This document shows positions 6,224 through 18,598 of a DNA stretch of 23,500 bases, piece after piece. The DNA comes from a virus. Position 1 is the first letter of the stretch, and every line of letters starts with the position of its first letter. The translations under genes were made by a program, and so were the position numbers. The notes under the pieces were generated by a model that saw nothing but the letters and a program-made list of their open reading frames with translations, had not been told where the DNA came from and did not search any database. Where the stretch lies: the IMG/VR virus record IMGVR_UViG_3300025132_000309, positions 1 through 23,500 of that record; one strand, 5' to 3'.

Positions 6224-7716
6224 TGTGGAACGTTGTACTTGGTCCACCTGGAACTGGTAAAACTACCTACCTATTAAATAAAGTAGAGCAGTTTCTAGAA
6301 GCAGGTGTCAAACCAGATAAACTAGGTTATGTAGCGTTTACTAAAAAAGCTGCAAACGAAGCTCTTGTACGAGCTGTAGATAAGTTTGAGTTTGACCCTA
6401 AAGAGCTTGTTTATTTTAGAACCCTTCACTCACTGTGTTATCATTGGCTTGGTCTAACGAGAAGTGACGTTATGGCTCGTAGTAATTTACGAGAATTTAG
6501 TAGAACTATAGGTGAGCGTATAAACTCGGCTTGGGATGGTGAAAACTTAATGTCTTTAAAAAGCAAAGGCGATACTATGTTATTCATAGAAAATATGGCT
6601 CGTAACAGGTGTGTCGGTTTTAGGGAGCAGTGGAACGAGGCTGGTACAAATATATCTTGGATGCACTTTGATTGGTTTGTAAAAAACTATTCTAACTATA
6701 AAGAGGGTAATTTCTTAATAGATTATACAGATATGTTAGAAATGTTTTTACACTCAAACGGTAAGCCTATCCTTGACGTATTAATAGTTGATGAAGCACA
6801 AGACTTATCTGCTTTACAGTGGGAGTGTGTAAAGAAACTAGCAGAGGGGGTAGAAGAAGTCTACATAGCAGGAGACGATGATCAAGCTATATACCGTTGG
6901 GCTGGGGCAGACGTTGAGCAGTTTATAGACTTAAAAGGTAAGACACAATATCTAAAACAATCATACCGTGTACCTAGAAAAGTTCATGATGTAGCGTTGT
7001 CCGTGGTTAAACGTATCGGTAATAGAAAAGAAAAAGTATGGGAACCAAAAGAAGATGAAGGATCAGTAGCCTATCATGCTAACTTTGAACACGTAAATAT
7101 AGATAATGGTGATTGGTTATTTTTAGCTAGGAATAATTATCTATTGAATCAAGTAGAAGATTATTTAAAACTACAAGGTAGAGTTTATCAAAAAGGTAAC
7201 AAATCTTCTGTATCTGAAAATTTAATTACAGCTATAAAAGATTGGGAGTCTTTACGCAAAGGTGAGCAGATTGAAGCTGGTAGGATAAGAAAAATATACG
7301 GCTACATGAAAGTTGATAAAGGTGTTAAAAGAGGATATAAAACTTTAAAAACAGTGGGAGATGACGCAATGCTCAACATCAATGATCTTAAAAAAGATTA
7401 TGGCTTATTAGTTGATTGTTTGTGGCACGAGTGTTTTGATTCAATCGGTAATACTCAAAGAGAATATGTTATATCCTGTTTGAGACGAGGAGAGAAGTTA
7501 TTATCTTCTAAAATAAAATTAAATACGATACATGCAGCTAAAGGCGGTGAGTCTGACAACGTAGTATTACTTACAGACTTAGCGAATAAAACATGGGAGG
7601 AGTTATATGTAAACCCAGATAACGAGTGTAGAGCCTTCTATGTAGGAGTAACAAGAACTAAAAACAATCTACACATAGTGCGAGGTAAAACTCGCAAGGA
7701 GTTTTTATTTGTATGA
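6223..7716 (+). CDS. UvrD/Rep-like superfamily 1 DNA helicase
   Basis: A 497-residue SF1 helicase, shorter than bacterial UvrD (about 720). Motifs in order: GPPGTGKTT (residues 7-15, Walker A), GYVAFTKKAANE (35-46, motif Ia), RTLHS (66-70), DVLIVDEAQDLSALQWE (185-201, motif II), AGDDDQAIYRWAGAD (216-230, motif III), KQSYRVP (245-251, motif IV), NTIHAAKGGESDNVVLL (434-450, motif V) and YVGVTRTKNNLHI (473-485, motif VI). All catalytic residues are present. It would unwind DNA 3' to 5' and, beside the primase and upstream of PolA, is the best candidate for the replicative or recombination helicase; no DnaB-type helicase is in the window. The accessory 1B/2B domains look reduced, which fits the short length. 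Confidence 0.92.
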   Translation: MWNVVLGPPGTGKTTYLLNKVEQFLEAGVKPDKLGYVAFTKKAANEALVRAVDKFEFDPKELVYFRTLHSLCYHWLGLTRSDVMARSNLREFSRTIGERINSAWDGENLMSLKSKGDTMLFIENMARNRCVGFREQWNEAGTNISWMHFDWFVKNYSNYKEGNFLIDYTDMLEMFLHSNGKPILDVLIVDEAQDLSALQWECVKKLAEGVEEVYIAGDDDQAIYRWAGADVEQFIDLKGKTQYLKQSYRVPRKVHDVALSVVKRIGNRKEKVWEPKEDEGSVAYHANFEHVNIDNGDWLFLARNNYLLNQVEDYLKLQGRVYQKGNKSSVSENLITAIKDWESLRKGEQIEAGRIRKIYGYMKVDKGVKRGYKTLKTVGDDAMLNINDLKKDYGLLVDCLWHECFDSIGNTQREYVISCLRRGEKLLSSKIKLNTIHAAKGGESDNVVLLTDLANKTWEELYVNPDNECRAFYVGVTRTKNNLHIVRGKTRKEFLFV

Positions 7717-8291
7717 TGAAAGTAATAAAAAGAGGATTAGTGGGATACAGACCTGAAATACCTGAATGGGATGAACCTGTTATTAGAAATTTTAACGGTA
7801 AAGAGGTTATAGGTAGATATACAAAAGCATACGGAACTAAATCTTTTGAGTATGCTGGTAAGTTATATGAACCTGAACCGTGGTCAACCTCTATGTCGGT
7901 TTTAAAAATGGCTACACAACTGCTTCTTTATAAAGAACTAGGAAAGATAATTAGATTTAATTTTTGTTTGTGTGGACTTTACGAAGATGGAAGTGTTTCA
8001 ATACCTCATCACTCAGACACTGTACCAACAGAAGATGACTTAGTGGTTGGTGTTTCGTTTGGTGCTCCAAGGTTTATGGAGTGGAATCAATACGATACTT
8101 ATATAAAAGAACATACAAATACCAGTGAGATTGATAATGAACTATCTTGGTCTTTACAGAAAAAGTATTTCCTTGACGATGGTGATGTGTATGTGTTTGA
8201 TGGTCATTCACAAATGAACAGTACCCATGCTATACCTCCTATGGATAACGTAGGAGAACGAATAAATTTAACGTTTAGGACAGGTTTATGA
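7713..8291 (+). CDS. AlkB-like 2-oxoglutarate/Fe(II) dioxygenase
   Basis: A 192-residue protein with the complete AlkB signature. The iron ligands are H100-x-D102 in PHHSD and H172 in STHAIPP; the 2-oxoglutarate-binding arginine motif is R183-INLTF-R189, the R-x-N-x-T-x-R form that separates AlkB from other 2OG enzymes. VSFGAPRF (114-121) matches the AlkB SLGA-R-F strand. AlkB enzymes oxidatively demethylate 1-methyladenine and 3-methylcytosine in DNA or RNA. It overlaps the helicase gene by 4 bases, with AAGGAG about 10 bases upstream, and is the last gene of the first operon. Direct repair is the default role; given the modification genes downstream, activity on modified phage DNA is a possibility only. 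Confidence 0.9.
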   Translation: MMKVIKRGLVGYRPEIPEWDEPVIRNFNGKEVIGRYTKAYGTKSFEYAGKLYEPEPWSTSMSVLKMATQLLLYKELGKIIRFNFCLCGLYEDGSVSIPHHSDTVPTEDDLVVGVSFGAPRFMEWNQYDTYIKEHTNTSEIDNELSWSLQKKYFLDDGDVYVFDGHSQMNSTHAIPPMDNVGERINLTFRTGL

Positions 8292-8349: not shown

Positions 8350-8814
8350 ATGAATATATTTAAATTAGATACAACTCCTCAGCTTTGTGCTCAAACGCAC
8401 TGTGACAAGCATGTATCTAAGATGATATTAGAATCAGCTCAAATGCTTTGTACTACGTTGTGGAGTAACGGTCAAAACGCTCCTTATAAACCTGTACACG
8501 CTAAACACCCTTGTACTATATGGGCTGGGGAGAGCTTAGATAACTGGCTTTGGTTAAAAGAACTAGCTATATATTTAAATGAGGAGTTTTGCTGGCGATA
8601 TGGTCGCTCTGCTAGTCATAAATCAATAGAAGTCATTAATGAATTATTTCCTCCACTTATAGAAAGTAAAGGCTTACAACAACATCCACAGTGTATGCCT
8701 GACGAGTATAAGGTAGCTAATGATCCTATATCGGCTTACCGTAACTACTATATAGGGGAAAAACATTTTGCAGTGTGGACTAAACGTGAGGTACCAGAAT
8801 GGTTTCAAGTGTAG
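8350..8814 (+). CDS. Conserved phage protein of unknown function (CDKHVxKM family)
   Basis: A 154-residue protein that I recognise as a family found in T4-like and other marine phages without a known function. Characteristic segments are CDKHVSKMILESAQ (about residues 18-31), HAKHPCTIWAGES (50-62), a WRYGRS segment and CMPDEYK (about 114-120), with a conserved end of the type AYRNYY...WTKREVPEWF. It is rich in conserved His, Cys, Asp and Trp, as expected of an enzyme, but no catalytic site can be assigned. No Shine-Dalgarno sequence precedes the ATG, and the N-terminus matches the family start, so the ATG is likely correct. It overlaps the following modification-type gene by 16 bases, which suggests a linked role. 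Confidence 0.8.
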   Translation: MNIFKLDTTPQLCAQTHCDKHVSKMILESAQMLCTTLWSNGQNAPYKPVHAKHPCTIWAGESLDNWLWLKELAIYLNEEFCWRYGRSASHKSIEVINELFPPLIESKGLQQHPQCMPDEYKVANDPISAYRNYYIGEKHFAVWTKREVPEWFQV

Positions 8815-9641
8815 AAGGTTTCTATAATTATATTAATGAAAGATATACCATACATTTAGTTAAAAGCTGGAGCACCTCTCCTCCGTGGACTGATGATGAA
8901 ATATTACAGACATACAGTTTTTGTAATGTATTCCGTGAAGATGATAGGGTAACCACTTGGATACGTGAAAATTGGAAAGAGCCTTACGCTGATCACCCTA
9001 ACTTGCCCTTTGCTATGGCTGTAGCACGTCAAATAAATTGGCCAGATACTTTACAGGAAATAGGTTTCCCTGAGCACTGGAACCCTGAGCGTGTTAAAGC
9101 TATTATGCAAGGTAGAATGGATAGAAAAGAAAAGGTGTACACAGGTGCGTATATGTTGACAGGTACGTTAGGTGGTACAAAAGTTGAACAAACAATAGAT
9201 AAAATATTAACACCACTTTATGAATCACCGCCTGAGATAGTACCGCATTCTCTTGAGGAGACTTGGAAAAAATATTTACCGTATCCAGGATTCAGTGGAT
9301 TTATGGCTTACGAGGTAGTTACGGATTTACGCCACAGTAAATATTTAGAAAACGCTGACGATATTATGACTTGGGCTAATGCTGGTCCAGGAGCAAAACG
9401 TGGCTTAAATAGAATACATGGCAGACCACTTGAGCAAAATATTAAACCAAGCCAATTAACTGAAGAGATGTTAGAACTATTAAATCTTGCTAGTACATAT
9501 GCTGTAAGTCATTTACCTACACTAGAGATGAGAGAAATAGAACATTGTCTCTGTGAGTACGATAAATATGAAAGAGTGCGTTTAGGTGAGGGTAGACCTA
9601 GAGCAAAATATAAATACACAGGAGAAACAAAATGGCTATAG
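8799..9641 (+). CDS. Putative DNA base hypermodification protein (HMUDK helical-domain / aGPT-PPase-like)
   Basis: A 280-residue, mostly helical protein. The N-terminus has FYNYINERYTIHLVKSW (8-24), PPWTDDEILQTYSFCNVFRE (28-47) and DDRVTTW (48-54). PWT-D-IL--Y-F-NV-RE-D is the pattern I associate with the helical domain of the 5-hydroxymethyl-dU DNA kinases and glutamyl/putrescinyl-thymine pyrophosphorylases of hypermodifying phages. No P-loop (G-x4-GK-S/T) is present, so it is not itself a kinase; YPGFSGFMAYEVVTDLR (about 166-182) and WANAGPGAKRGL (about 191-202) are further conserved-looking segments. Expected role: acting on a modified thymine or 5-hydroxymethyluracil in DNA. Start follows GAGG with 8-base spacing inside the previous gene; family assignment is from memory of motifs. 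Confidence 0.68.
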   Translation: MVSSVEGFYNYINERYTIHLVKSWSTSPPWTDDEILQTYSFCNVFREDDRVTTWIRENWKEPYADHPNLPFAMAVARQINWPDTLQEIGFPEHWNPERVKAIMQGRMDRKEKVYTGAYMLTGTLGGTKVEQTIDKILTPLYESPPEIVPHSLEETWKKYLPYPGFSGFMAYEVVTDLRHSKYLENADDIMTWANAGPGAKRGLNRIHGRPLEQNIKPSQLTEEMLELLNLASTYAVSHLPTLEMREIEHCLCEYDKYERVRLGEGRPRAKYKYTGETKWL

Positions 9642-9961
9642 AACCAAAAGATTTATTTAACCTAGTAGAAGACGACGTCCGTGAGCTCGTACACGCAGAA
9701 AAAAGCTACGGAGATAGTTGGCGTAAACGTGGTGGCGTGGGAGCTTTTATGATGTTAGCACGTAAATGGGATAGGATAGAAAACCAGTGCATCAAAGAAG
9801 GTTACGATATATTCGACACAATATCAAAGGATCCAACTGATACAGGTATTTTAGATGACATACGTGATTTAAGAAGGTACTTGATATTGGTTGAAAACTT
9901 TATGACAAAGATTCATACTATAGAAAAAAGAGAGGATAACTATGAAGAAAGTAGAGATTAA
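9632..9961 (+). CDS. Small conserved phage protein, possibly Nmad1/DUF1599-like
   Basis: A 109-residue all-alpha, charged protein. The segment YGDSWRKRGGVGAFMMLARK (about residues 26-45) followed by WDRIENQ, then a DDIRDLRRYLILVENF helix (about 75-90), follows the layout K-YG-SW ... L--K--RI ... D---D---Y of the nucleotide-modification-associated domain 1 (DUF1599) and related MazG-like helical proteins. That identification is tentative. AGGAGA precedes the ATG within the end of the previous gene, and the gene overlaps dUTPase by 20 bases, so it belongs to the nucleotide modification block. If correct, it would help handle or sense modified or non-canonical nucleotides. Confidence 0.7.
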   Translation: MAIEPKDLFNLVEDDVRELVHAEKSYGDSWRKRGGVGAFMMLARKWDRIENQCIKEGYDIFDTISKDPTDTGILDDIRDLRRYLILVENFMTKIHTIEKREDNYEESRD

Positions 9962-10400
9962 AATAATAGACCCAAGTTTATTTGACCACACTGACCCACA
10001 CATACTCCCTGAGTATGCCACTGTAGGTTCAGCTGGTTTAGACTTACGGTCAGCAGAAGACTATGAGTTAGCTCCAGGAGAGTCTCATACATATCGCACA
10101 GGGTTAGCTATGTATTTAGGTGACTTTGAGCTTTGTGGTTTGCTTGTGCCTCGTTCTAGTTTAGGTATCAAAAAGATACATTTAACTAATACACTAGGAA
10201 TTATTGACGCAGACTATCAAGGTGAGTTAATGGTTCCACTTACCAATAACGGAGAGAGGGGCATGCTTATTGAAAAGACCCAAAGGATAGCTCAGTTAGT
10301 GGTAGTACCTGTGGTTCAAGTAATGTGGCAACCTGTGTTAGATTTTAGTAGCATCACCATGCGTAGTATAGGTGGGTTCGGGAGCACAGGTACAAAATGA
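9942..10400 (+). CDS. dut: dUTP diphosphatase (dUTPase)
   Basis: A 152-residue trimeric-type dUTPase with all five family motifs: AGLDLRSA (about 30-37, motif I), PRSSLGIK (motif II), TLGIIDADYQGEL (motif III, with the catalytic Asp), RIAQLVVVPV (motif IV) and the C-terminal GGFGSTG (motif V). It hydrolyses dUTP to dUMP and pyrophosphate, which keeps uracil out of DNA and supplies dUMP to the TS-fold enzyme two genes downstream. Length and motif spacing are normal for the family. AGAGG lies about 7 bases before the ATG. It overlaps the gene before (20 bases) and, through ATGA, the glycosyltransferase after it. Confidence 0.96.
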   Translation: MKKVEIKIIDPSLFDHTDPHILPEYATVGSAGLDLRSAEDYELAPGESHTYRTGLAMYLGDFELCGLLVPRSSLGIKKIHLTNTLGIIDADYQGELMVPLTNNGERGMLIEKTQRIAQLVVVPVVQVMWQPVLDFSSITMRSIGGFGSTGTK

Positions 10401-11188
10401 AGATATACATACCAACAAGAGGTAGACCAACTAATCAAGAAACACTCAAGTGGTTTCCTAAAGAAATGCAAACTAACGGTCAGGTTGTGTTAGTTATAGA
10501 CGAGGACGAAAAAGATCAGTACACTAAATACCCAGATACACCTAAAATGATTGTACCTGAAGACTGTGTAGGTATTGGTCCAAAGCGTAAGTACATAGTA
10601 GAAAACACAGATGACCCACGTATGGTTATGTTAGATGATGACTTACGTTTTTACATTCGTAAAAGCCCAACTGACTGGCACCTCAGATACCTTGACTCAG
10701 AGGAATACCCTGCTTTGTTTGGTTTGCTTGATGAGTGGATGGATCAGGGTTATGCTCATGTAGGGGTAAGTGCTAGAGAAGGTAATAATAGGGTAGAGGA
10801 CTTATCTGTAGAAAACACACGGTATATGAGGGTTTTAGGCTATAACCTAGAACAGTTCCCCAGTGATGTTGAGTGGGGTAGGACTAGAGTCATGGAAGAT
10901 TTTGACATAGCTCTACAATTATTAAGAAGGGGTAAAGCCTGTAAAGTAAGTTTTTACTACGCTCAAGGTCAAAAGTCATCGAACGCTGACGGTGGCTGTA
11001 GTGAGTGGAGAACTATTGACGTACATAATGAAGGAGCTCAAAGGTTACACGACCTTCATCCCACTTGTGTAAAGGTGGTTGAGAAACAAACAAAAACTGC
11101 ATGGAACGGTTTACCACGTAAAGACGTAATCATAGGTTGGAAGAAAGCCTACAAAGAAGGAGTAGAAAATGCAAGTATTACACGTTAG
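10397..11188 (+). CDS. GT-A-fold glycosyltransferase, TET-associated (TAGT) type
   Basis: A 263-residue protein. It begins MKIYIPTRGRP and has VGIGPKRKYIVEN (58-70), MVMLDDDLRF (76-85, the D-x-D metal/nucleotide-sugar motif as D80-D82), a downstream MEDFDIALQLLRRG (166-179, acidic ED pair) and NADGGCSEWRT (196-206), then LHPTCVK and a WKKAY end. This order matches the GT-A glycosyltransferases that lie next to TET/JBP enzymes in phages (TAGT family), which put sugars onto hydroxymethylated bases in DNA. No TET/JBP protein is seen here; instead the gene lies between dUTPase and a TS-fold enzyme, so 5-hydroxymethyluracil would be the natural acceptor. Donor sugar is unknown. ATGA junction with dut; 20-base overlap with the next gene. 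Confidence 0.78.
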   Translation: MKIYIPTRGRPTNQETLKWFPKEMQTNGQVVLVIDEDEKDQYTKYPDTPKMIVPEDCVGIGPKRKYIVENTDDPRMVMLDDDLRFYIRKSPTDWHLRYLDSEEYPALFGLLDEWMDQGYAHVGVSAREGNNRVEDLSVENTRYMRVLGYNLEQFPSDVEWGRTRVMEDFDIALQLLRRGKACKVSFYYAQGQKSSNADGGCSEWRTIDVHNEGAQRLHDLHPTCVKVVEKQTKTAWNGLPRKDVIIGWKKAYKEGVENASITR

Positions 11189-12176
11189 AAACGTACATGA
11201 CGCTTTAGTGCGTGGTATGGATCTACTTTATATAGAGGATAATGAATCAGACAGCAGAAACGGAAAAGTTTACGAAGCTACAACACCTGTAACTACAGTA
11301 TATAAAGAACCTAAAGAAAGAGTTTTATTTTGGGAGGAGCGTGACGCTAACCCTTTCTTTCATTTTATGGAAGGTTTGTGGATGCTTGATGGTCGTAATG
11401 ACTTACAAACCATGTACTACTACAACAAAGGCATGAAAAACTACAGCGATGATGGTCAAACTCTTCACGGAGCGTATGGTTGGAGATGGAGATCATTTTT
11501 TACCTATGATCAACTACCTGTAATTATTGAGAGACTTAAAGAAGATCCGAGGGATAGAAGATCTGTATTACAGATGTGGGATCCTGTTGAAGATTTAAAC
11601 AGAGATGGTAAAGATGTACCGTGTAACACTTGTATATATTTTAAGATATACGACAACCGTTTAAACATGACTGTTTCTAATAGATCCAACGATATTATTT
11701 GGGGTGCTTACGGTGCTAATGCAGTACATATGTCTATGTTACAAGAATACATGGCGAGTGCCATAGGGGTGGGTGTAGGTACTTACTATCAAATAAGTGA
11801 TAATTATCACGCATACAGTGAAGTTTTTGATGGTTTACTGGATAAATTAAATAAACGTGACGCATTTGATTTTTATACCCAAAGAAGCCTAATTAGACAA
11901 AACCCCTATAAAATAGGTGAGGTAAAACCATACCCAATGATAGAAACAGATATCAATACTTGGAACCTTGACTTACTTTCTTTTCTAGAAAGAACACCTT
12001 TTGAAGACGTAGACTTTGAAGATACCTTTTTCACTGAAGTTGCTAGTCCTATACAGGATGCTTGGTGGCTACATAAAATAGGTAGAACAGAAGAAGCTCT
12101 TATAGAAATACAAAAATGTAAGGCAACTGATTGGCGTAAGGCTTGTTGGGAGTGGATCAATAGAAGATTAAAATAA
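11169..12176 (+). CDS. Thymidylate synthase-fold enzyme (thymidylate synthase or dUMP hydroxymethylase)
   Basis: A 335-residue member of the ThyA fold. Landmarks: FFHFMEGLWMLDGRND (63-78), DRRSVLQMWDP (129-139, the phosphate-binding Arg pair), DVPCNTCIYF (149-158, catalytic Cys152), NRSNDIIWGAYGAN (171-184, with the Asn184 that reads uracil rather than cytosine) and SDNYHAY (210-216, His214/Tyr216). The residue after Cys is Asn where classical ThyA has His, and the ThyA C-terminal closing motif is missing; a Trp/Lys-rich helical extension (about 290-335) takes its place. So dUMP is the likely substrate, and the product may be dTMP or 5-hydroxymethyl-dUMP. AAGGAG precedes the ATG. It sits beside dut and a DNA-modification-type glycosyltransferase. 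Confidence 0.9.
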   Translation: MQVLHVRNVHDALVRGMDLLYIEDNESDSRNGKVYEATTPVTTVYKEPKERVLFWEERDANPFFHFMEGLWMLDGRNDLQTMYYYNKGMKNYSDDGQTLHGAYGWRWRSFFTYDQLPVIIERLKEDPRDRRSVLQMWDPVEDLNRDGKDVPCNTCIYFKIYDNRLNMTVSNRSNDIIWGAYGANAVHMSMLQEYMASAIGVGVGTYYQISDNYHAYSEVFDGLLDKLNKRDAFDFYTQRSLIRQNPYKIGEVKPYPMIETDINTWNLDLLSFLERTPFEDVDFEDTFFTEVASPIQDAWWLHKIGRTEEALIEIQKCKATDWRKACWEWINRRLK

Positions 12177-12186
12177 AGGAGTAACC

Positions 12187-12867
12187 ATGATTAAACAATG
12201 GTCGTACAGCAGATTAAGCTGTTTTGAAAAGTGTCCCAAACAAGCAGAGTTCAAGTTTATAAAGAAGATAAAAGAACCTGGAAGTGCTGCGATGGATAGA
12301 GGTAAAGATATCCATAAACTGTGTGAAGATTTTATAAGAGGTAGTATAGAAGAAATACCAGCACAACTGCAAGACTTTGAGGATGCGTTTGTAATACTCA
12401 AAGATTTATATCTATACGGTCATGTAATCTGTGAAAGTGATTGGGCTATAGATCAGAACTGGGAAAAGACTGGTTGGTTTGAAGATGATACTTGGGGTAG
12501 AGCTAAAGTAGATGCTTTTGTTTATGAAGAAGGTATTAGTAAAGAAGCTCGAGTAATAGATTTTAAAACTGGTAGGTATGACGGTAATCAAGAAACACAC
12601 AGAGAGCAATGTGAGCTTTACGGTGCTATTGCCTTGAACCGTTACCCTGAACTAGAAAGTATTACTACTGAGATGTGGTACTTGGATCATGGTAAGATTG
12701 ATCGCTACATATACACACCAGAAAGTATCAAAGTAAAACAAGAAAGGTTAAACCTAAGAGCTATAGCCATGACTACAGCAGAAGAGTTTCCAGCTAACCC
12801 ATCTAAGTTTAAATGTAAGTGGTGTTACTTCGGAAAACAAAATATGTGTAGGGAGGCAGAAGTATGA
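12187..12867 (+). CDS. RecB/Cas4-like PD-(D/E)XK nuclease with probable Fe-S cluster
   Basis: A 226-residue nuclease. It begins QWSYSRLSCFEKCPKQAEFK, typical of the Cas4/AddB/RecB nuclease family, followed by GKDIHKLCEDF (the family His), WGRAKVDAF (metal-binding Asp), ARVIDFKTGRYD (the D-x-K catalytic pair), REQCELYGAIA (the Q-x3-Y motif) and a C-terminal CKWCYFGKQNMC. An N-terminal Cys plus three C-terminal Cys is the layout that holds a 4Fe-4S cluster in Cas4 and AddB. Expected role is single-strand or end-processing exonuclease in phage recombination and replication. AAGGAG precedes the ATG, and the stop overlaps the polymerase start (ATGA), so the two are coupled. Confidence 0.88.
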   Translation: MIKQWSYSRLSCFEKCPKQAEFKFIKKIKEPGSAAMDRGKDIHKLCEDFIRGSIEEIPAQLQDFEDAFVILKDLYLYGHVICESDWAIDQNWEKTGWFEDDTWGRAKVDAFVYEEGISKEARVIDFKTGRYDGNQETHREQCELYGAIALNRYPELESITTEMWYLDHGKIDRYIYTPESIKVKQERLNLRAIAMTTAEEFPANPSKFKCKWCYFGKQNMCREAEV

Positions 12868-14747
12868 CACAGATGGTTATGGATTTTTTAAAACCAGAAA
12901 CACAGTGGGCTCCACCCACCTCTTTCCCTGATTTAACTAATCAAAAAGAGATAGCGATTGACCTAGAAACTTGTGACCCTTGGCTCAGGTCTCATGGTCC
13001 AGGATGGGCTTGTAAAGACAGAGGTCATGTTATAGGTATAGCGATAGCTACTGAGGGTTGGAAGGGATACTTTCCTGTGGCTCATAGTAACGGTGCTAAC
13101 TTGGATAAGAACGTGGTTCGTAGATGGCTACAAAAACAGTTAGATGCACCTAACGCTAAGATATTTCATAACGCTCAATATGACGTAGGTTGGCTCAAAG
13201 CAGAAGGTTATACAATCAACGGTGAGATACACGATACTATGATGGCTGCTCCTTTACTGAATGAAAACGAATACAGTTACTCACTTAATAGTTTAGGTAA
13301 AATGTATCTTGGTGAGGTAAAAGATGAAACCATGCTCACAGAAGCTGCACAAATATTCGGTGTTGATCCTAAGTCTGAGATGTATAAACTAGCACCAGAG
13401 TATGTAGGTATGTATGCTGAGCAGGATGCTGACCTTACTTATAGGTTATGGCAGATACTAAAAAAGGGTATTAGTGAGGAAAACATAACTGATATTTATA
13501 ATCTAGAGCGTGGATTATTACCTGTGCTTATAAAGATGAGGATGAAAGGTGTCCGCATAGACATAGATAAAGCTCAACAGGTTAAAAAACAACTTAAAAA
13601 AGATGAGGATAAAATAATCAAAGAGATTAAAAACTGGTACGGTATCGCACCTGATTTATGGGCAGCACAATCACTAGCACAGGTGTTTGATAGAGCAGGT
13701 CTTGACTATCCTAAAACCCCTAAGACTCAAGCACCAAGTTTTGTAGCTAATTGGTTAGAGGCTCACGATCATAAACTACCCATGGCTATAGCTAAAGCTA
13801 GAAAACTTAACAAGGCTCGTACTACGTTTATAGATAAAATGATACTTGAGCATTTAGTTGACGGCAGAATACACGGTGAACTACATCCTCTTAGGTCAGA
13901 TAGTGGCGGTACTGTTACAGGTAGGTTTAGTTGTAGTAACCCAAACTTACAGCAAGTGCCAGCTAGAGATCCTATGATTGGTAATTTAATAAGATCATTA
14001 TTTATACCAGAGGAAGGTAAACACTGGGGATGTTTTGATTACTCTCAACAAGAACCTAGACTAACAGTACACTATTCTGTAATTACACAACAAGATGGTG
14101 CAGAAGAAGCAGCACTTGACTACCATGATGACGACGCAGACTTTCATCAAATAGTAGCAGACATGGCTAACATAAGCCGTAAAGAAGCTAAGATAATTAA
14201 TCTAGGGTTAAGTTATGGTATGGGTAAGGATAAGCTAACAAGTCAGCTTGGTATCAGTAATGAAGAAGCTGAGATACTCTTCAACCAGTATCATGAACGA
14301 GTACCTTTTGTCCGTGGCTTGCGTGATTCTGCTGCTCGTCAAGGAGCTAACAGAGGTTACGTCAAAACTATTCTAGGTCGTAAATGTAGATTTAATTTAT
14401 ACGAACCTCACGATAGAAGGGAAACACCCTTACCTTTTGATAAAGCTATGGACGAATATGGCGGTAGGCTAAAAAGAGCCTACACCTATAAAGCTATGAA
14501 CCGTTTGATACAAGGCTCAGCTGCAGACATGACAAAGCAAGCTATGCTTGATCTTCATGAGGAAGGTTTACTAGCACATACTCAAGTACACGATGAACTT
14601 AATATATCGGTAACTGATAAAAAAGAATGTGAAAAGGTTGTGGACATAATGAGAGACTGTGTAGAACTTAAAGTACCTAATAAAGTTGACGCAGAGATTG
14701 GTCCAAGCTGGGGTAACGTTGTAGATTACAGAGAATATTTTAAATGA
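12864..14747 (+). CDS. polA: Family A DNA polymerase with 3'-5' exonuclease (Leu at 762-equivalent)
   Basis: A 627-residue replicative polymerase with no 5'-3' exonuclease domain. Proofreading domain: D33-x-E35 (AIDLETCD), FHNAQYDVGW (101-110, D107) and YAEQD (184-188). Polymerase domain: SGGTVTGRFSCSNPNLQQVP (347-366), motif A GCFDYSQQEPR (389-399, D392), motif B SRKEAKIINLGLSYG (438-452, R439, K443, Y451) and motif C VHDEL (575-579, H576/D577). The residue matching E. coli Phe762 is Leu447, a variant that viral-ecology studies link to slower or temperate-like replication. Motif A reads QQEP instead of the usual Q-IEL, an uncommon form. It would replicate the phage genome together with the primase and helicase upstream. 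ATGA overlaps with both neighbours. Confidence 0.96.
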   Translation: MTQMVMDFLKPETQWAPPTSFPDLTNQKEIAIDLETCDPWLRSHGPGWACKDRGHVIGIAIATEGWKGYFPVAHSNGANLDKNVVRRWLQKQLDAPNAKIFHNAQYDVGWLKAEGYTINGEIHDTMMAAPLLNENEYSYSLNSLGKMYLGEVKDETMLTEAAQIFGVDPKSEMYKLAPEYVGMYAEQDADLTYRLWQILKKGISEENITDIYNLERGLLPVLIKMRMKGVRIDIDKAQQVKKQLKKDEDKIIKEIKNWYGIAPDLWAAQSLAQVFDRAGLDYPKTPKTQAPSFVANWLEAHDHKLPMAIAKARKLNKARTTFIDKMILEHLVDGRIHGELHPLRSDSGGTVTGRFSCSNPNLQQVPARDPMIGNLIRSLFIPEEGKHWGCFDYSQQEPRLTVHYSVITQQDGAEEAALDYHDDDADFHQIVADMANISRKEAKIINLGLSYGMGKDKLTSQLGISNEEAEILFNQYHERVPFVRGLRDSAARQGANRGYVKTILGRKCRFNLYEPHDRRETPLPFDKAMDEYGGRLKRAYTYKAMNRLIQGSAADMTKQAMLDLHEEGLLAHTQVHDELNISVTDKKECEKVVDIMRDCVELKVPNKVDAEIGPSWGNVVDYREYFK

Positions 14748-15145
14748 TAAAAGGTTTTACTTGTGGTTGTTTTGATTTACTGCATGCTGGTCATATAGTT
14801 ATGTTAAAAGAAACAAAACAACACTGCGACTATTTAATTGTTGGACTACAAACAGATCCATCAATCGATAGACAAGAAAAGAATCAACCAGTTCAATCAG
14901 TTTACGAAAGGTTTGTTCAATTAAACGCAGTTAAATATGTTGATGAGATAATACCTTACGATACAGAACAAAGTTTGATAGATCTACTGGAGTCCACTCC
15001 TATAGATATTAGGTTTGTAGGTGAAGATTACAAAGATAAATCTTTTACGGGAGATTACTTACCCATCGACACCATATACACAAACAGAAAACATTCATTT
15101 AGTACAAGTAGTTTGAGGAGAAAAGTTTCAAATGAAGAGAGCTGA
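14744..15145 (+). CDS. TagD-like cytidylyltransferase/nucleotidyltransferase
   Basis: A 133-residue HIGH-superfamily nucleotidyltransferase. It begins MIKGFTCGCFDLLHAGHIVM with the nucleotide-binding H14-x-x-H17, followed by DYLIVGLQTDPSID and a C-terminal STSSLRRKV, equivalent to the ISTT/STS-x-x-R ATP/CTP-binding end of the family. Length fits single-domain glycerol-3-phosphate cytidylyltransferases, which make CDP-glycerol, although related enzymes use ethanolamine phosphate, sugar phosphates or pantetheine phosphate. The substrate cannot be read from the sequence. It overlaps polymerase (ATGA) and the HTH gene (14 bases). It may supply an activated group to the modification block upstream, or support host-surface or lipid changes. 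Confidence 0.85.
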   Translation: MIKGFTCGCFDLLHAGHIVMLKETKQHCDYLIVGLQTDPSIDRQEKNQPVQSVYERFVQLNAVKYVDEIIPYDTEQSLIDLLESTPIDIRFVGEDYKDKSFTGDYLPIDTIYTNRKHSFSTSSLRRKVSNEES

Positions 15146-17896: not shown

Positions 17897-18598
17897 ATGC
17901 AGCCCCCTCCGTACCTAATCAAAAACTTTTTACTTACTATCAAAGCTGAGTGGATGCTTGATAAAACTACGCTTGAATTAACTAAAGACTCTATGAAGAG
18001 TTTAAAAGAGTTTCAGCTAAGTGATGGTCAAGGTGATGTAGAAAACGTCTTACAAGAATACGTTACTAAACACGGTCACGATATTTATTCTGTGCCTTTG
18101 TTTACTCAAGAGTTCTGTGACACTATGTTGGATGAAATAGAAAATATGAAACAACATCTGGCTTTTGAACCTAACACAGATGAAGATGAACTGAGGCAGA
18201 TACCAGAAATAGTACTGCACGAAAAAGCACCAGAACTATTTAACTCGATGCTTGGCGTAGTTTTCAATGTCATGAACCCTATCTTCATGTCAATATGGCA
18301 ACGTTACTGTAATGCTGCCGCAACTATACAGATTGCGAACTATAACGTAAAAGACAAAAAGCAAGGTGCGTGGCACCATGACCAGACCGCTGATATTAGT
18401 ATGGTTGTACCGTTAAACACTGGAGATTATAAAGGCGGAGGAACTGAGTTTCATAGTCGTACTACTGTAGAACCGTTACCCAGTGGTCACGCTTTATTCT
18501 TTCCTAGTTTTACACACATGCACCGTGGCTTACCAGTCGAGGAAGACGGTGACCGTTATTTACTTGTGTTTTGGTTGTACGGTGGAAGTAATGAATAA
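17897..18598 (+). CDS. 2-oxoglutarate/Fe(II) oxygenase, prolyl-4-hydroxylase-like
   Basis: A 233-residue protein. The C-terminal half is a P4Hc-type double-stranded beta-helix: H160-x-D162 in AWHHDQTAD, GGGTEFHSR (180-188), SGHALFFPSFTHMHRGLPV (196-214, distal iron ligand H209) and DRYLLVFWLYG (219-229, R220 for 2-oxoglutarate). The first 120 residues are a helical region without known motifs. Targets of phage members are mostly unknown and include proteins and nucleic acid bases. GGAG lies 5 bases before the ATG. The gene has its own 78-base leader with short palindromes (CCTATAGG at 17850, GGTATACC at 17860) and is the second 2OG enzyme in the window, unrelated in subfamily to the AlkB-like one. 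Confidence 0.85.
   Translation: MQPPPYLIKNFLLTIKAEWMLDKTTLELTKDSMKSLKEFQLSDGQGDVENVLQEYVTKHGHDIYSVPLFTQEFCDTMLDEIENMKQHLAFEPNTDEDELRQIPEIVLHEKAPELFNSMLGVVFNVMNPIFMSIWQRYCNAAATIQIANYNVKDKKQGAWHHDQTADISMVVPLNTGDYKGGGTEFHSRTTVEPLPSGHALFFPSFTHMHRGLPVEEDGDRYLLVFWLYGGSNE

Follow-up and report, generated by a model that had tools for sequence, protein, structure and literature searches.

Thymidine hypermodification in phages M6 and YuA involves a deoxyuridine monophosphate (dUMP) hydroxymethylase, a DNA kinase acting on 5-hydroxymethyldeoxyuridine (5-hmdU) (PF18748), an amino acid:DNA transferase (ADDT, PF18724) and a helical protein (PF18723). M6 DNA contains 5-NedU, derived from 5-hmdU (PMC6449724), and phage CBA120 carries 5-NeOmdU (PMC11721090). 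Phages T4 and T6 hydroxymethylate at the nucleotide level and then glycosylate the DNA, and TET-TAGT phages combine a TET oxygenase with a TAGT glycosyltransferase. Solitary TAGTs were counted in 288/753 phage genomes and called potentially novel transferases (PMC13216743, 2026). In HTVC023P-type pelagiphages, a thymidylate synthase (TS), a helical protein and the same transferase have already been noted (PMC9599517). Here, we analysed a 23,500-nt fragment of a marine phage (record IMGVR_UViG_3300025132_000309; 'the window' denotes this whole stretch), in which genes for a PF18723 helical protein, a TAGT and a TS-fold enzyme lie in one block. This block is probably a thymidine-hypermodification operon that ends in direct, kinase-free glycosylation of 5-hydroxymethyluracil in DNA.

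The block consists of five consecutive co-directional genes on the plus strand with overlapping ends, encoding the helical protein (HMUDK_hel, 280 aa, without a P-loop; 8799-9641), a small conserved protein (109 aa; 9632-9961), a dUTPase (152 aa; 9942-10400), the TAGT (263 aa; 10397-11188) and the TS-fold enzyme (335 aa; 11169-12176). A first-pass annotation of the sequence had described four overlapping genes followed by a TS-fold enzyme; these positions and overlaps were borne out, and the TS-fold gene start (11169) overlaps the TAGT gene end (11188) as well, giving five overlapping genes. Window proteins were assigned to families using Pfam profiles with curated cut-offs, and all block family calls except that of the small gene were well above cut-off. 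The proteins encoded at 8799 and 10397, for which profile searches had been proposed, fell into the expected rather than unrelated families, matching PF18723 (152.3 bits, cut-off 25, E 2.3e-44, model positions 4-277 of 281) and PF20691 (84.4 bits, cut-off 27.5, 1.3e-23), respectively. The dUTPase matched PF00692 (103 bits, 1.8e-29), and dUTP diphosphatase NF001862 was above cut-off too.

Like M6 and YuA, the window has a dUMP-hydroxymethylase-type TS fold, a helical protein that stands alone, encoded close to the TS-fold gene, and a nearby family A polymerase; unlike them, it has a GT-A glycosyltransferase beside the helical gene and no 5-hmdU DNA kinase or ADDT was found. Nucleotide-level hydroxymethylation followed by DNA glycosylation would be shared with T4 and T6, and the T6-type TAGT belongs to the same Pfam family. 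However, the hydroxymethylase here is predicted to be of the uracil type, the TAGT would be the first transferase and not a second-sugar enzyme, and the T4-type phages searched were without the helical protein. The glycosyltransferase family is also that of the TET-TAGT phages (the TAGT of records L051/L052 is 52-53% identical, with a nucleotidyltransferase nearby), whereas the window block would make the hydroxymethyl group at the nucleotide level, without TET, and the TET-TAGT records had neither PF18723 nor an adjoining TS-fold gene. The HTVC023P-type phages, related marine phages of about 60 kb, have these gene families near the DNA polymerase as well.

The first-pass annotation had reported no recognised DNA kinase or TET enzyme. 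Neither PF18748 nor TET/JBP (PF12851) was detected in the window or in any of 25 records with linked TAGT and TS-fold genes. The PF18748 profile, used because a single YuA kinase query was too narrow, was positive in M6, YuA and record L162 (L164 below cut-off), and the PF12851 search only in L051 and L053, where the TAGT is accompanied by a nucleotidyltransferase-cupin fusion and by no TS-fold or helical gene. A TAGT above cut-off occurred in none of the kinase-bearing records (M6 has one sub-threshold fragment). As the window is a fragment, the absence of both enzymes rests mainly on the larger relatives; since they were missing there while the controls were positive, the claim holds beyond the fragment. 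ADDT (PF18724, the family of YuA gp10) had no match among the 18 window proteins scanned, and none in 13 TAGT-bearing relatives in a search without a positive control. Alpha-glucosyltransferase PF11440 was not found in 22 records, and its positive control gave no match either. PADLOC analysis of eight window proteins returned generic helicase and primase matches only.

The TS-fold protein (PF00303 Thymidylat_synt, 80 bits, 3e-22) shares 50% identity over 99% of its length with the dUMP hydroxymethylase of M6. Its catalytic Cys152 lies in a 'PCN' motif common to the M6 and SPO1 enzymes (the CBA120 enzyme has VCN, also with Asn after Cys), whereas the JS10 thymidylate synthase has 'PCH', with His where the hydroxymethylases have Asn. 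At the base-reading site it carries the uracil-reading Asn184, in contrast to the Asp of T4 deoxycytidine monophosphate (dCMP) hydroxymethylase (gp42); the Asp by which T-even-type dCMP hydroxymethylases are recognised is absent from the block enzyme. Both Cys152 and Asn184 were invariant in 46/46 non-redundant relatives. These features argue strongly that the TS-fold enzyme is a dUMP hydroxymethylase and uphold the earlier call of a uracil-type enzyme.

The AlphaFold2 model of the helical protein (29 sequences; pLDDT 90, pTM 0.86) was compared with solved structures using VIA-align. The top match was the phage 5-PmdU glycinyltransferase 8z2n (Z 11.8, 212 residues, 3.6 Å), followed by helix-hairpin-helix DNA glycosylases (Z 7-10). 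Because DNA glycosylases made up nearly all of the matches listed, headed by an enzyme from a phage 5-hmdU pathway, the model makes a good but not conclusive case for a helix-hairpin-helix DNA-glycosylase fold, as helical folds may reach such Z values by common arrangement. Foldseek gave no significant E-value against the PDB; against viral models, it matched helical-domain proteins from phages phi-W14 and phiRSL1, as well as the SP10 5-hmdU DNA kinase (637 aa), which contains the helical domain as a fusion. PF18723 was detected in M6, YuA and CBA120; SPO1, T4 and those T4-type phages with 5-hydroxymethylcytosine (5-hmC) that were searched lack it. By gene content, the family accompanies hypermodified thymidine (M6, CBA120, phi-W14, SP10). 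We infer that the helical protein is a DNA-binding or base-flipping partner for 5-hmdU. T4 beta-glucosyltransferase acts on duplex 5hmU only at 5hmU:G mispairs (PMC4111573), which makes a base-flipping helper plausible. A separate stretch overlapping the start of the helical gene (8350-8814) gave a strong match to phrog_624 'DNA binding protein' and a weak one to Pyr_excise (0.03).

The TAGT model has a GT-A fold (pLDDT 87), with structural matches up to Z 13 and resemblance to GT2-like and GalNAc transferases. Residues 80-82 form an invariant DDD, an Asp-rich metal motif, and further invariant residues are present. The protein is a predicted DNA 5-hmdU glycosyltransferase.

Scans with the TAGT protein, the helical protein and a helical-protein alignment returned some 80 marine viral contigs, several of them close to 60 kb long. 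Their stable core order was helical gene, TAGT, TS-fold gene, exonuclease and polymerase; an AlkB-like gene, the dUTPase, a nucleotidyltransferase and the small gene were shifted or lost among relatives. Among 81 distinct loci of the helical gene followed by 3 kb or more of sequence, a sample biased to close relatives, the TAGT lay within 3 kb of the helical gene in 68, and the TS-fold gene did so too in 67/68; the other 13 had no TAGT within that distance. Purifying selection was evident on both the TAGT gene (pN/pS 0.05-0.17 versus relatives) and the helical gene (0.12-0.28). This low pN/pS, together with the proximity of the two genes in 68/81 loci, shows that the block is not a chance arrangement. 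Unrelated phages also combine TAGT, TS-fold gene and helical gene, namely L054, L056, L157, L170 and Brevibacterium phage LuckyBarnes (in the order TS-fold gene, TAGT, TAGT, helical gene); the pairing of TAGT with the helical gene is also seen in L167, another unrelated phage.

Where the dUTPase is gone, as in many relatives, several have a YfbR-like 5'-deoxynucleotidase in the block (PF12917 in L036, 5e-16). The small gene (9632-9961) occurs in the block of most relatives. Its suggested Nmad1-like identity survives only weakly, in that one distant member of its alignment matches PF07659 (Nucleotide modification associated domain 1; 2.7e-5); the protein has no Pfam match of its own, and the direct assignment was dropped because nothing in the window record itself matched.

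The enzyme beside the helical gene varies. It is a TAGT in the window group, a TAGT with an FkbM methyltransferase in L142/L143 (which fits later methylation of a sugar) and a TAGT with a radical SAM protein in L170; L167 retains the helical gene alongside two TAGTs. L156 has a GT-B enzyme where its sisters in the same lineage have a TAGT, and GT-B enzymes accompany the helical gene in L166 and L168 as well (for L159 and L087, judged from a motif or a weak match). In YuA, M6, L162 and L164 the helical gene is accompanied by the kinase. This alternation of kinase, TAGT and GT-B supports a common 5-hmdU substrate with swappable finishing enzymes.

In the proposed pathway, the dUTPase would keep dUTP low and supply dUMP, which the TS-fold enzyme, whose specificity has sequence support, would convert to 5-hydroxymethyl-dUMP. 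Host kinases would phosphorylate this to 5-hydroxymethyl-dUTP, which the phage polymerase may then incorporate into DNA, replacing T partly or wholly. The helical protein, lacking a kinase domain, would bind the duplex and expose 5-hydroxymethyluracil, and the GT-A TAGT would attach a sugar, taken from a nucleotide-sugar donor, to the oxygen of the hydroxymethyl group. The route would bypass the phosphorylation step of a 5-hmdU DNA kinase, and the bulky base could block restriction or CRISPR nucleases. Sequence evidence backs the predicted specificity of the hydroxymethylase, the family and fold assignments of the TAGT and the helical protein, and the absence of kinase and TET. With matched families, a uracil-type hydroxymethylase and neither kinase nor TET, sugar attachment to 5-hydroxymethyluracil, which the first-pass annotation had put forward, appears to be the best-supported reading. 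Base J of kinetoplastids is O-glycosyl-5-hydroxymethyluracil, the same class as the predicted product; there, JBP oxidises T in DNA, whereas the window phage would make 5-hmdU before replication. We give about an even chance to the fuller proposal that the product is a phage analogue of base J, O-glycosylated without a DNA kinase, and that PF18723 is a 'reader' platform presenting 5-hmdU to a swappable kinase, GT-A or GT-B enzyme.

Several points weigh against kinase-free glycosylation of 5-hydroxymethyluracil. A gene missing from the window could lie outside the fragment. No thymidylate (dTMP) kinase-like gene was found in 19 phage records, where cellular controls were detected, so the triphosphate step must rely on the host. 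Phage MW202897 has a TAGT and a TS-fold gene without detectable PF18723, so the helical protein is not an absolute requirement. Kinase and helical protein occur together in CBA120 and M6; the role of the helical protein could therefore differ from that proposed and even be catalytic. Lastly, the L051/L052 TAGT nests within the TS-linked TAGTs, and TAGT phylogeny alone thus cannot fix the base.

A catalytic helical protein would be the first DNA-level enzyme, activating or substituting 5-hmdU, and the TAGT sugar would go onto that product. The nearest solved fold, the glycinyltransferase, is indeed an enzyme, Foldseek against viral models gave a weaker match to ADDT proteins, the helical protein has many invariant polar residues (R15, D33, N43, R46, D49, E172, D176, D188 and C252-R259), and it occurs with every decorator type. 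However, glycinyltransferase chemistry requires a phosphorylated base, for which these phages lack the kinase, and MW202897 manages with no helical protein; we regard this alternative as unlikely. Less likely still, the TAGT might act on 5-hmC in T-even or TET style, the TS-fold enzyme and helical protein forming a separate pathway. The T6-type TAGT acts on glucosyl-5-hmC (PMC13216743), and the TAGTs linked to TET in L051/L052 are closely similar and nest among the TS-linked ones in the tree, so the family has switched between routes to the hydroxymethyl group. Against this, T6-type TAGTs form a distant outgroup, TET is missing from every TS-linked TAGT record, all 46 relatives have the uracil-type Asn in their hydroxymethylase, and the block has a dUTPase or YfbR-type nucleotidase, not a dCTPase. 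That the operon merely pairs an ordinary thymidylate synthase and nucleotide metabolism with a surface-glycan transferase in a phage with unmodified DNA is very improbable: the Pfam name is just 'Thymidylate synthase' and GT-A enzymes mostly act on glycans, but the full-length identity to the M6 enzyme, the 'PCN' motif, a best solved-structure match to a CMP 5-hydroxymethylase (88 bits versus 50 for thymidylate synthase) and an operon shared with the hypermodification marker PF18723 all speak for modified DNA.

Glycosylation of 5-hydroxymethyluracil without a kinase would be a variant of thymidine hypermodification in which a glycosyltransferase takes the place of the kinase, as we propose from these sequences. 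The gene block itself is not new, having been noted in HTVC023P-type pelagiphages, in a paper that lists the genes and states that the transferase 'potentially broadens the functionality', without proposing that direct glycosylation replaces the kinase (PMC9599517). That account gives the gene combination and neither the kinase-swap reading nor its chemistry. We found no published report of glycosylated 5-hmdU made by such enzymes in the literature covered, which did not extend to key PF18723 papers. With dozens of ocean-sample relatives of this marine phage, our findings point to a widespread marine route to modified thymidine using glycosyl transfer instead of phosphorylation. For PF18723, a recurrent family in hypermodified-thymidine phages with no function assigned in that literature, they suggest a role that can be tested, and for some of the solitary TAGTs counted in PMC13216743 they offer a candidate function. 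If true, the enzymes could serve as labelling tools for 5-hydroxymethyluracil in DNA, and the modification would act as a counter-defence for phages that infect abundant ocean bacteria.

Downstream of the block, a family A DNA polymerase (12864-14747, plus strand) is retained near it in nearly all relatives. The window polymerase is nearest to those of HTVC023P-type pelagiphages and a freshwater gammaproteobacterial phage (about 50% identity), the best annotated matches being DNA polymerase A of HTVC023P-type phages. The TAGT gave a single weak 22% match across one genome per bacterial species, and hence no host link. A cytidylyltransferase-like nucleotidyltransferase (133 aa; 14744-15145, plus strand; PF01467, 3e-17), whose best profiles were heptose-1-P adenylyltransferase and glycerol-3-P cytidylyltransferase (CTP_transf_like), might, speculatively, make the activated donor sugar. 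It occurs in about half of the TAGT+helical records and not in M6/YuA; an obligatory donor-making role was dropped because the other half lack it. An AlkB-like 2-oxoglutarate (2OG)-Fe(II) oxygenase (PF13532, 6e-17; 7713-8291), distinct from TET/JBP and variably placed among relatives, adjoins the block; neither it nor the nucleotidyltransferase featured in the first-pass annotation. A second 2OG-Fe(II) oxygenase (PF13640, 1e-8; 17897-18598) lies downstream and is retained by many relatives.

Other records showed further gene arrangements. In L051 (8330-10774), a TET/JBP oxygenase, the nucleotidyltransferase-cupin fusion and a TAGT (53% identical to that of the window) stand in a row. L167 (7001-12100) has the helical gene, two divergent TAGTs, two radical-SAM-like proteins and an LmbE-like deacetylase (motif only), and in the close relative L156 (7001-12700) a cupin-like protein, an FkbM methyltransferase and the GT-B glycosyltransferase replace the TAGT between the helical and TS-fold genes. 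In L164 (6900-11500), the helical gene is followed by a weak-PF18748 kinase-like protein, an ADDT-family protein, an FkbM-like protein and a myo-inositol-1-phosphate synthase, possibly a DNA-modification cluster using inositol. Finally, L086 (120-5170) encodes a GT-B-like fragment and an LmbE-like deacetylase (both by motif only), the helical protein, an APS-kinase-like P-loop protein, a sulfotransferase-like protein and a TS-fold enzyme, which suggests a sulfated thymidine hypermodification.

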